Assembly (NCBI GenBank): GCA_017466865.1
Contig: JAFTTI010000014.1
Location: forward strand, 1 to 64,000
From: Oscillospiraceae bacterium
Lineage (GTDB): Bacteria; Bacillota; Clostridia; Oscillospirales; Ruminococcaceae
Length of the DNA stretch: 64,000 nt
Direction of reading: 5' to 3'
Part shown: positions 60,715-64,000 of the stretch, piece by piece
Numbering within the stretch: position 1 is the first letter of the stretch
Layout: every line of letters begins with the position of its first letter
Made by a program: the position numbers and the translations under genes
Notes under the pieces: model-generated
Database searches by the model: none
The model's input: only the letters and a program-made list of their open reading frames with translations
Told to the model about the DNA's origin: nothing

Positions 60715-60911
60715 CCGAACAGGCGCTCGCTGTTTTTATGGGATTTTTTTATCTGTCGGAAAGTATTTCGACTCGATGAGAAAATCATCCGCCTTCTCGG
60801 AATGATTCCAATGGCATTTGGGGGATTTACGGCATCCTTACAGAATGATTTTTTAAGTTCATCACACGGCAACGGGCTTGTGCAGGATTCTCACCTGCTT
60901 CCATTCCGACA
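60715..60911 (-). promoter_or_regulatory. Cobalamin riboswitch
   Basis: On the minus strand the leader shows the cobalamin riboswitch core: GGTGAGAATCCTGC (near 60896-60883), a GCCATTG core (near 60816), GAGAAGGC and a B12-box-like segment AGTCGAAATACTTTCCG (near 60773-60757) whose changes from the consensus keep pairing. The promoter TTGTAA-17-TATAAT lies at 60946-60918, giving a start near 60911. It should shut off expression of the DUF4430 gene and S component when cobalamin is plentiful. Confidence 0.87.
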
Positions 60912-60917
60912 ACAGAT

Positions 60918-60946
60918 ATTATAGCATAGGTTTAATGTGTTTACAA
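60918..60946 (-). promoter_or_regulatory. Promoter of the cobalamin-riboswitch operon
   Basis: On the minus strand TTGTAA (60946-60941), 17 bp, TATAAT (60923-60918). Confidence 0.8.
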
Positions 60947-61768: not shown

Positions 61769-63316
61769 TTATACACCCTCCTTTTCAAGAACTATAATAT
61801 CGTCGCAATCGGCAGTGAGAGTAATGGGGAAAATCTGTCCCTCGTCCGAAACTGCTTTTGGTGAAGTCCTGAATTTGCTGATAAGACCTAAAATCTGTAT
61901 TGTGAGTAATGGAGTCATCGCAACCATAGCAACAATTCCGAATGCATCTGCGGCTATGTTTCCGCCTGCGGCGAAACTAGCTCCCATAGCGAGAGGGAGA
62001 AGGAATGTTGCTGTTAAAGGCCCTGATGCTACTCCGCCTGCGTCGAACGCAACAGATGTGAATATAGGTGGAACGATGAAACTTATAATAAGTGCAAGTG
62101 CATAACCGGGGATTAAAAACCAGAGAATAGAAATTCCCGTTATAACTCTTAACATAGCAATTCCGACAGAAGCCGAAACGCCGACAGCAAGGCTTATTCC
62201 TAAAGCCCTTGCAGAAATTCTGCCTTCGGTTATTGTTTCAACCTGTTGTTTCAAAACGTGAACAGCAGGCTCCGCCGAAACGATGAAGTAACCGATTATC
62301 ATTCCTATCGGGATGAGTATCCACGAAAATCCACTTCCCGCAAGGCTTTCACCGATATACTGACCTATGGGCATAAATCCTACATTAGCGCCTGTTAAGA
62401 AAAGAACAAGTCCTATATAGGTAAAGATAAGTCCGACAAAAATCTTTATGAGTGTTTTTTTATCAAGTTTGAGTGATATAAAATTGAAAATAAGGAAGAA
62501 TGCGATTATAGGTAATATAGCCATAGCGACTTCTTCCATATAATGAGGCAGAGAGTGTGAGAACTTTCTGAAAACTTCTGAAACGAAATCATAATCTCCT
62601 ATGGGTTCTATTGTCTGTTCTGGAATTTCCGTGCTATTAACAGCACCGAGAATAAGCACAGTGAGAATAGGCCCTATTGAACACATAGCAACAAGACCGA
62701 AACTGTCTTCTTCTGATGTCTTGTCACCACGGATTGATGAAAGACCAAGTCCCAAAGCCATTATAAAAGGAACTGTTATAGGCCCCGTTGTAACCCCGCC
62801 CGAGTCAAACGCTGTCGGGATAAAGTCGGGTGTTATGAGTGGTGAACAAGCGAATATGAAAACGAGTGCATAGAAAATTACAAAAAGATATGAAATCTTT
62901 ATCTGTAAAAAGATACGAAGGAATGCAATCGCAAGAAAAAGTCCAACGCCTATTCCTACCGACCATATCATAACCTGAGAGTCGGCTATGGGTGTCTGGT
63001 CGGCGAGAACTTTAAGGTCAGGCTCAGCGACAGTTACAAGAACGCCGATTATAAAGCATATCGGCAGAATAAGCCAGACTTTTTTGAGCCTTACGAGTTT
63101 AGCGCCAATTTCTTCACCTATGATAATCATCGAAGTGTCTGCGCCGAGTGTAAAAAGCCCTATGCCGACAACGAGAAGAACTGTTCCGACAAAGAACATA
63201 AAAAACATTTCTCCACTGACGGGAACTATCGAAATCATCAAAAGAAAAACGATAGCTGCAACAGGCAGAACAGAGCCTAATGATTCTTTTATTTTTTCCA
63301 AAAGATTTTTCTTCAC
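61769..63316 (-). CDS. DUF1538 tandem-repeat membrane protein (predicted transporter)
   Basis: A 515-residue integral membrane protein made of two homologous DUF1538 halves: FDSGGVTTGPITVPF (near 172-186) and FDAGGVASGPLTATF (near 421-435) are the repeated signature, and about twelve TM helices are visible. The inverted or tandem repeat suggests a transporter fold. It is followed by a PII-like gene 3 bp away, so gating by that regulator is likely. Transported substrate is unknown. Confidence 0.85.
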   Translation of the reverse strand: MKKNLLEKIKESLGSVLPVAAIVFLLMISIVPVSGEMFFMFFVGTVLLVVGIGLFTLGADTSMIIIGEEIGAKLVRLKKVWLILPICFIIGVLVTVAEPDLKVLADQTPIADSQVMIWSVGIGVGLFLAIAFLRIFLQIKISYLFVIFYALVFIFACSPLITPDFIPTAFDSGGVTTGPITVPFIMALGLGLSSIRGDKTSEEDSFGLVAMCSIGPILTVLILGAVNSTEIPEQTIEPIGDYDFVSEVFRKFSHSLPHYMEEVAMAILPIIAFFLIFNFISLKLDKKTLIKIFVGLIFTYIGLVLFLTGANVGFMPIGQYIGESLAGSGFSWILIPIGMIIGYFIVSAEPAVHVLKQQVETITEGRISARALGISLAVGVSASVGIAMLRVITGISILWFLIPGYALALIISFIVPPIFTSVAFDAGGVASGPLTATFLLPLAMGASFAAGGNIAADAFGIVAMVAMTPLLTIQILGLISKFRTSPKAVSDEGQIFPITLTADCDDIIVLEKEGV

Positions 63317-63353
63317 ATCTTCACCCCTTGATGTTCAAAGTGATATTTATTAC

Positions 63354-63382
63354 ATTATATCATATTTTAAAATTACGGGCAA
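63354..63382 (-). promoter_or_regulatory. Promoter of the DUF1538-PII-like operon
   Basis: On the minus strand TTGCCC (63382-63377), 17 bp, TATAAT (63359-63354). Confidence 0.6.
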
Positions 63383-63489
63383 GATTCATAATTTATCTTT
63401 ACTGTGTTTTAGGAAACATATATTATACCATATTAAGTGGGTAAAAAGATGGACATATATTATGATATAATGTAAAAGAGAGTATTTTA

Positions 63490-63518
63490 TTGATATATAT
63501 GGAAAGAAGTGTTATAAT
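63490..63518 (+). promoter_or_regulatory. Candidate cas9 promoter
   Basis: TTGATA (63490-63495), 17 bp, TATAAT (63513-63518), giving a start near 63525 and a ~180-base leader that spans the whole tracrRNA in antisense. A weaker alternative is TTGAAA (63658-63663) with CATAAA at 63681-63686. Confidence 0.6.
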
Positions 63519-63551
63519 GACAGATACAGGTTAGACCAATCCGAAAAAAAC

Positions 63552-63667
63552 AAAAAAGTCTGCTAAAAGCAGACTTTAAAGCACTACATGTGCAATCGGA
63601 AACCCGACGATTTGAATAAATTTTTATTTGAACTCGTAGTGTAATTTCATAGGGAACTTGAAACTAC
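63552..63667 (-). ncRNA. tracrRNA of a type II CRISPR-Cas system
   Basis: On the minus strand, just upstream of cas9. The anti-repeat-like part (CCCTATGAAATTACACTACG, about 63652-63633, then AGTTCAAAT) is followed by an A/T-rich nexus region, a TCGGGTTTCCGA hairpin, a GCAC/GTGC hairpin (63581-63593) and a perfect terminator stem AAAGTCTGCT/AGCAGACTTT (63555-63564, 63568-63577) with a T-run. Just before the anti-repeat, a repeat-like half (ATTTGAGTGTAGTTTCA) can pair with it. Promoter TTGACA-17-TATTAT lies at 63702-63674. Without the array the anti-repeat pairing cannot be verified. Confidence 0.78.
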
Positions 63668-63673
63668 ACTCAA

Positions 63674-63702
63674 ATAATAACATAAAAAACGGAGGTTGTC
63701 AA
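63674..63702 (-). promoter_or_regulatory. tracrRNA promoter overlapping the cas9 ribosome site
   Basis: On the minus strand TTGACA (63702-63697), 17 bp, TATTAT (63679-63674), predicted start near 63667. The cas9 Shine-Dalgarno GGAGG (63691-63695) lies within this promoter and the -35 hexamer ends 1 bp from the cas9 ATG. Confidence 0.78.
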
Positions 63703-63703
63703 T

Positions 63704-64000
63704 ATGTCAGAAGAAAAAATTTTTATAGGTCTTGATATCGGAACGGATTCGGTAGGGTATGCTGTTACGAATGAAAGATATATTCTTAAAAAATTTCACG
63801 GAAAAAACATGTGGGGAGTTACTCTTTTCGATGAGGCTGAACTGAATACAGGCAGAAGAGGATTCCGTTCTGCAAGAAGACGTCTTGACAGAAGACAACA
63901 GCGTGTAAAACTTATAGGAGAACTTTTTGCAGAAGAAATCGGAAAGAAAGATGCTGATTTCTTCAGAAGAATAAAAGAAAGTGCACTTTGCAGAGAAGAC
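63704..64000 (+). CDS. cas9: Cas9, N-terminal 99 residues (3' end outside window)
   Basis: The frame from ATG 63704 runs to the window edge. It opens with the RuvC-I motif FIGLDIGTDSVGYAV (residues 7-21; catalytic Asp at 11) followed by MWGVTLFDEAE and the Arg-rich bridge helix GRRGFRSARRRLDRRQQRV (residues 50-68). GGAGG lies 8 bases before the ATG. This is the RNA-guided nuclease of a type II CRISPR system; subtype cannot be settled from this fragment. cas1, cas2 and the array would lie beyond 64000. Confidence 0.96.
   Translation, partial: MSEEKIFIGLDIGTDSVGYAVTNERYILKKFHGKNMWGVTLFDEAELNTGRRGFRSARRRLDRRQQRVKLIGELFAEEIGKKDADFFRRIKESALCRED

Follow-up and report, generated by a model that had tools for sequence, protein, structure and literature searches.

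The window analysed here is a stretch of 64,000 nucleotides from an Oscillospiraceae bacterium, and a cas9 gene begins on the plus strand close to its end. The gene starts at 63704, leaves the window at 64000 and runs on to C15:67756 of the contig. Its product of 1350 amino acids matches TIGR01865 with 845.7 bits and contains the Pfam domains Cas9_REC, Cas9_PI, HNH_4, Cas9_RuvC and Cas9-BH. The start codon is backed by relatives that match from residue 1 (e.g. L039, L040, L041 and L043), and in the window cas9 is the sole plus-strand open reading frame of at least 60 amino acids beginning after 63490. The neighbouring gene lies on the minus strand at 61769-63316, and a cobalamin riboswitch is found on the same strand at 60741-60925 (Rfam RF00174, 49.7 bits). 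Upstream of cas9, and opposite to it, is the ordinary place for a tracrRNA gene. Here we predict a tracrRNA of about 112 nt on the minus strand (63555..63667), with its start near 63667 and its end at a terminator-like site with a 10-bp stem and a T-rich tail, found by pattern scan (63555..63577). The minus strand of 63548-63667 folds with a z-score of -5.1. It carries an anti-repeat (63626..63664), since the 19-nt core of the array repeat GTTTGAGAGTAGTGTAATTTCATAGGGAACTCAAAC occurs exactly at 63636, and the two are computed to pair. The same core is exact in eight repeats of the array and has one mismatch in the ninth. The array itself lies downstream of cas9, at about C15:68145-68757, and comprises nine full repeats of 36 nt and one truncated repeat; this last one (C15:68738-68757, L011:8739-8758) matches over some 20 nt and then becomes degenerate.

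With RuvC, HNH, REC and PAM-interacting domains in its Cas9, and a predicted tracrRNA that has a terminator and an anti-repeat for the system's own array, this is a type II CRISPR-Cas system. The II-A gene set (cas1, cas2 and csn2 beside cas9) is absent from the window's own locus. Beyond the window, at C15:67753-68010 (L011:7754-8011), lies a cas1 remnant of 85 amino acids, which covers positions 1-75 of the 278 of TIGR03639 when profile-scored over 84 amino acids. No Cas1 match above the threshold (E 0.001) was found elsewhere in the assembly, which is 75% complete, and no open reading frame of cas2 or csn2 size lies on the plus strand from cas9 to the array. The system is probably no longer able to acquire spacers. 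Downstream of cas9 in four relatives, L125, L126 and L128 have open reading frames sized and ordered like cas1, cas2 and csn2, and L127 has just a short cas1-like one; of these, the Csn2 of L125 and L126 and the Cas2 of L125 were scored, and all three lie above the cut-off. As neither cas2 nor csn2 is present in the window's copy, we base the II-A-like assignment on the relatives, given the Csn2 scores of L125 and L126.

The tracrRNA promoter and the cas9 ribosome-binding site

The -35 element of the predicted tracrRNA promoter, TTGACA at 63697..63702 on the minus strand, is read directly from the plus-strand letters TGTCAA. The -10 element is TATTAT at 63674..63679 (plus-strand ATAATA), with a TG in front that makes it an extended -10. 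The 17-bp spacer between them (63680-63696) encloses the Shine-Dalgarno sequence of cas9, GGAGG on the plus strand (63691..63695), and a single base, 63703, separates the -35 from the cas9 ATG. An earlier note on this DNA had described the promoter positions, the spacing, the overlap with the Shine-Dalgarno and the 1-bp gap to the ATG, and every coordinate proved exact on direct reading. In a pattern scan this promoter, TTGACA-17-TATTAT (63702-63674), scores 11 of 12 in addition to the TG before the -10. It is the joint best of the nine sites in 62000-64000, tied with a plus-strand site at 63490-63518; as 5.6 sites are expected from shuffles, this total would not by itself prove either promoter. 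Counting both strands of the window, TGTCAA stands 0-2 nt ahead of an ATG or GTG six times, two of the six with a Shine-Dalgarno-like stretch in front, and the junction of this motif with a start codon is by itself no great rarity. It is the conservation in relatives that lifts the promoter call above chance.

Relatives were collected by Cas9 protein searches in genomes drawn at five ranks, namely family, genus, order, class and phylum, and from three further families within the order. These gave matches in 23/297, 2/6, 30/394, 12/146, 2/20, 17/200, 29/391 and 8/398 genomes, in draws that overlap and among which the window's own genome counts as a match five times. We examined 70 loci in which the Cas9 match starts at query residue 1-7, omitting a few such matches without a locus (G441, G630 and G1063). 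After dropping loci without upstream DNA (L013, L022), a near-copy of L021 (L020) and divergent loci (L074, L116, L117), we used 64, that is, the window's own (L012) and 63 relatives; all locus counts include the window. Identity of Cas9 to that of the window, over the matched stretches, ranges from 34% (L108) to 58% (L115, over 38 residues only). Start codons were chosen by a Shine-Dalgarno/ATG rule, except in L017, L019 and L046, where we manually assigned the GTG that follows TGTCAA, a choice that favours overlap.

The earlier note had proposed comparing the junction in related cas9 loci, and there the -35 and -10 are conserved above shuffles. Within -90 to +6 of the cas9 start, the best minus-strand site scores 11.1 on average across the 64 loci, against 7.95 in dinucleotide shuffles, and it reaches at least 11 in 42 of them, against 0.5% of shuffles. 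A perfect TTGACA is present in 51/64 loci, and the TG of the extended -10 in 37/62, compared with 5% elsewhere in the same spacers. The loci fall into two classes. In class A (36/64) the gap between -35 and start codon is -1 to +2 nt and the Shine-Dalgarno is inside the spacer; three of these loci (L036, L098 and L107) lack a perfect TTGACA. In class B (26/64) the best site lies 10-39 nt from the start codon, and in the stretches inspected by eye the Shine-Dalgarno comes after the -35. Distances of 3-9 nt between -35 and start codon occur in none of the 64 loci. Seven of the 26 class B sites (L015, L052, L057, L099, L101, L103 and L108) score only 9.5, a value matched by at least 6 of 50 shuffles, and two loci, L055 and L084, score too low for a class. 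L084 does have TTGACA, but its -10, TATAAA, fails the scoring rule. The scan reached 90 nt upstream, so that L015 (counted among the 26) and L055 (among the low scorers) are misplaced in it; a wider search places their tracrRNA promoters beyond that range. TGTCAA is invariant among the 18 loci where a single base separates it from the start codon, although these loci were selected by that promoter.

The cas9 leader and the 5' end of tracrRNA

Where, then, would cas9 be transcribed from? In the window, 37 bp separate the predicted tracrRNA start from the cas9 ATG, and therefore cas9 transcription must begin further upstream. Across class A the predicted distance is 35-39 nt, which leaves too little space for another promoter whose transcript would begin ahead of the Shine-Dalgarno. 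A near-consensus plus-strand site, TTGATA-17-TATAAT with a TG (63490..63518), stands just beyond the tracrRNA terminator and is likely to be the cas9 promoter. A transcript predicted to start there, at about 63525, would have a leader of some 178 nt, antisense to the entire tracrRNA. The earlier note's argument that cas9 transcription must pass through the DNA of the tracrRNA promoter thus holds for the predicted cas9 promoter, which, seen from cas9, lies past the tracrRNA gene. The geometry is in fact stronger than was stated there, being conserved and leaving no space for a nearer cas9 promoter.

The relatives also support this placement. In 28 of the 56 loci scanned, a plus-strand site close to the tracrRNA 3' end or past it scores at least 10.5, compared with 3% of shuffles; the other 28 fall below this threshold, L093 and L119 having no site at all under the rule, and eight loci without an anchor (L024, L036, L037, L049, L055, L056, L082 and L108) were omitted. 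Within class A, promoter-like sites are enriched outside the tracrRNA gene: scores of at least 10 occur outside the tracrRNA stretch in 19/35 loci (4.4% of shuffles), and inside it in 0/35 (4.3% of shuffles). Given that there is no room for a nearer promoter and that a plus-strand site stands beyond the terminator, the tracrRNA gene is probably nested, antisense, within the cas9 leader. We also observed that the plus strand of 63626-63664, and so the predicted leader, contains a gapped near-copy of the CRISPR repeat with the 19-nt core exact. To the tracrRNA, a cas9 mRNA starting at 63525 would therefore resemble a pre-crRNA repeat.

The predicted tracrRNA has a further peculiarity at its 5' end, where a hairpin may form (63641..63667, minus strand). 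Its first 9-11 nt or so resemble the repeat and can fold back on the anti-repeat, with GUAGUUUCA pairing with UGAAAUUAC through one G-U; a start 2-3 nt earlier would add pairs. Among 33 non-redundant loci the mean hairpin score is 7.8, against 4.8 when the leader alone is shuffled, and 23/33 score at least 7, against 11% of shuffles. In all 33 the stem starts at -3 to +3 of the predicted tracrRNA start; since the search was confined to -3 to +4, this position is no independent proof of the start. Leaders pair better with their own anti-repeats than with swapped partners (mean 17.4 vs 14.7; own better in 708/1056 comparisons; 0/5000 permutations as good), which points to compensatory change. 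This comparison omitted 16/64 loci, nine of them (L085, L099-L105 and L119) for a stretch too short for the hairpin, and the hairpin is therefore not universal.

The two strands give mixed signals for this fold. Over 51/64 loci the hairpin has a mean fold z of -1.78 on the tracrRNA strand, compared with -0.30 for the cas9-leader strand. Yet these folds contain 32 G-U pairs when taken from the tracrRNA strand and 51 when taken from the cas9-leader strand, which runs against the preference suggested by z, and a symmetric count over the 33 non-redundant loci gives 26 G-U vs 22 A-C. RNAalifold on a MAFFT alignment of 27/33 loci (omitting L021, L042, L054, L093, L094 and L107) returned no consensus pair; we suspect that the leaders have diverged too far for an alignment. 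The array repeat is computed to bind the tracrRNA with -26.8 kcal/mol when the hairpin arm is present and with -28.2 kcal/mol without it, so crRNA could open the predicted hairpin.

Possible functions of the overlap

Our best explanation, which as a whole we consider reasonably probable, is that a single 30-bp stretch doubles as promoter on one strand and as Shine-Dalgarno and start-codon spacing on the other. This would be part of a type II-A-like control region in which a tracrRNA gene lies head-to-head inside the cas9 leader and the two transcription units limit each other. In such an arrangement cas9 would be transcribed from the promoter just beyond the tracrRNA terminator, and its transcripts would traverse the whole tracrRNA gene backwards and the tracrRNA promoter as well. 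A polymerase at the tracrRNA promoter could block or collide with the cas9 polymerase, and a passing cas9 polymerase could in turn displace the one at the tracrRNA promoter. Such mutual limitation might automatically balance Cas9 against its RNA cofactor, and pairing of tracrRNA with the complementary cas9 leader would possibly reinforce the balance. The positions of the elements, their conservation, the missing space for a nearer cas9 promoter and the excess of candidate promoters outside tracrRNA are read from the sequences, whereas direct interference of this kind can reasonably be inferred from the geometry; both promoters are likewise taken to be active as predicted, and the two units to limit each other.

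Alternatively, the overlap could be the result of neutral compaction, inherited and tolerated (undoing it would need an insertion) without any regulatory effect. We regard this as a serious rival, possible though rather unlikely. In its favour, the promoter classes cluster on a Cas9 tree of 59 rows, built by a quick method with SH-aLRT support: they need 7 changes, where shuffles average 19. Moreover, the distance from Shine-Dalgarno to start codon would alone keep a -35 in register once it had lodged there, and class B, L015 and L055 live without the overlap. The last two are sisters nested in a long-branched clade of 26 rows that contains the window (SH-aLRT 100) and in which the other 24 rows are class A. 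Their tracrRNA promoters look intact despite the lost overlap: TTGACA-17-TATAGT at 114 nt from the start codon in L015, and TTGACA-17-TATCCT at 237 nt in L055. Because these two lost the overlap and keep the promoter, the overlap is not indispensable; judging from the tree it is old but not obligatory, the promoter being kept with or without it. The space opened between tracrRNA promoter and cas9 contains a plus-strand TTGCAA-17-TATAAT in L015, and in L055 only weak plus-strand sites, scoring 9 at best. By eye, similar-looking palindromic intergenic stretches occur upstream of cas9 in L055, one of them between the tracrRNA promoter and cas9, and upstream of the tracrRNA terminator in L016. What speaks for a function is that the overlap is kept in 24/26 rows of a clade with long branches, and that the distance from -35 to start codon varies from 10 to 39 nt in class B, although both observations are compatible with neutrality too. 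Because the overlap has persisted across long branches, we give somewhat more weight to interference and antisense pairing taken together than to neutrality.

Antisense pairing could also act by itself, at the RNA level: tracrRNA would pair with the cas9 leader and RNase III would cut the duplex, so that free tracrRNA would reduce the cas9 mRNA, or the leader would titrate the tracrRNA. As the sole explanation we hold this to be doubtful. If cas9 starts near 63525, the whole tracrRNA is complementary to the leader (computed pairing -127.8 kcal/mol), and the plus strand bears the exact 19-nt repeat core. On the other hand, the folded 5' end of tracrRNA would slow pairing, and the Shine-Dalgarno would stay uncovered, tracrRNA ending about 24 nt short of it. 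In PMC4448216, an antisense RNA of about 100 nt over the tracrRNA 3' end of S. agalactiae is reported and suggested to modulate tracrRNA.

A more elaborate and rather speculative picture, which we consider improbable but worth stating, is a clade-wide feedback circuit in which tracrRNA would be transcribed out of the cas9 ribosome site, the leader would be its antisense and the 5' repeat mimic would hide the anti-repeat. If this were true, the anti-repeat would have three competing partners, namely itself, the crRNA repeats and the cas9 leader. The cell could then sense the ratio of Cas9, tracrRNA and crRNA without a separate regulator and without a tracr-L guide.

Could the tracrRNA itself guide Cas9 to the cas promoter? 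Workman et al. reportedly found in 2021 that tracr-L of Streptococcus pyogenes is a natural single-guide RNA, in which a repeat-like 5' part is folded back on the anti-repeat, and the predicted 5' part of the window's tracrRNA is likewise a repeat mimic folded onto the anti-repeat, much like a single guide. PMC11417352 describes tracr-L as carrying an extension that is complementary to Pcas beside a PAM. In the window, however, the mimic begins about 0-3 nt from the predicted +1 (searched from -3 to +4), which leaves no guide stretch before it, and no minus-strand promoter-like site was found in 63703-64000, the part of cas9 scanned; with the predicted start, autorepression of the S. pyogenes kind seems very unlikely here. 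Finally, that TGTCAA is conserved for translation rather than as a -35 seems hardly credible: it does stand at a near-fixed place beside the start codon in 36/64 loci, but the TG of the -10 is conserved along with it, and class B, L015 and L055 have such a promoter at a distance from the start codon.

Relation to known systems

The layout has partial counterparts elsewhere. In IS10 with its pIN/pOUT promoters, and in similar pairs, an outward-facing promoter sits where a gene begins and yields an RNA antisense to the gene's leader. In IS10 this RNA, RNA-OUT, covers the ribosome site, whereas the predicted tracrRNA spares it and has a separate role with Cas9. The type II-A system of S. agalactiae has P1cas, P2cas, Ptracr-S and Ptracr-L upstream of cas9, and P2cas, at the tracrRNA 3' end, drives cas transcription, according to PMC12216829. 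The window is alike in that its predicted promoters for tracrRNA and for cas9 both lie upstream of cas9 and in having a distal cas promoter, here a predicted one, so that P2cas is a precedent, by analogy, for half of the layout (a cas promoter beyond tracrRNA). In the same account, however, S. agalactiae has the nearer P1cas, unless deleted, for which the window has no room, and both a long and a short tracrRNA promoter, where the window shows one, within the cas9 ribosome-binding site. A further likeness is to the hairpins between leader and repeat by which II-A systems prevent extraneous crRNA (Liao et al. 2022, cited in PMC12080349). In both systems a 5' leader segment would hide repeat-related sequence by folding; in that account the leader of the CRISPR array hides a repeat, whereas here the predicted tracrRNA 5' end would hide the anti-repeat.

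No title or opening abstract that we found described a tracrRNA promoter inside a cas9 ribosome site, which is weak evidence that none has been described, most subscription journals being outside the search; nor did a guide-less repeat mimic at a tracrRNA start turn up in the same search. To our knowledge, little has been established outside the streptococci about the control of Cas9 levels. From the sequence comparison, many distant relatives share the packing, such that the cas9 and tracrRNA genes probably have to be read through each other. For many type II-A-like systems within this bacterial class, the layout predicts a coupling of cas9 and tracrRNA that needs no regulator, and a small DNA segment would suffice to test it. 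It also follows that cloning such a cas9 with its native ribosome site may bring along a tracrRNA promoter firing backwards.

A minor observation concerns L018, L019 and L025, in which the assembled cas9 has in-frame stops, yet the tracrRNA promoter is retained near the start codon.
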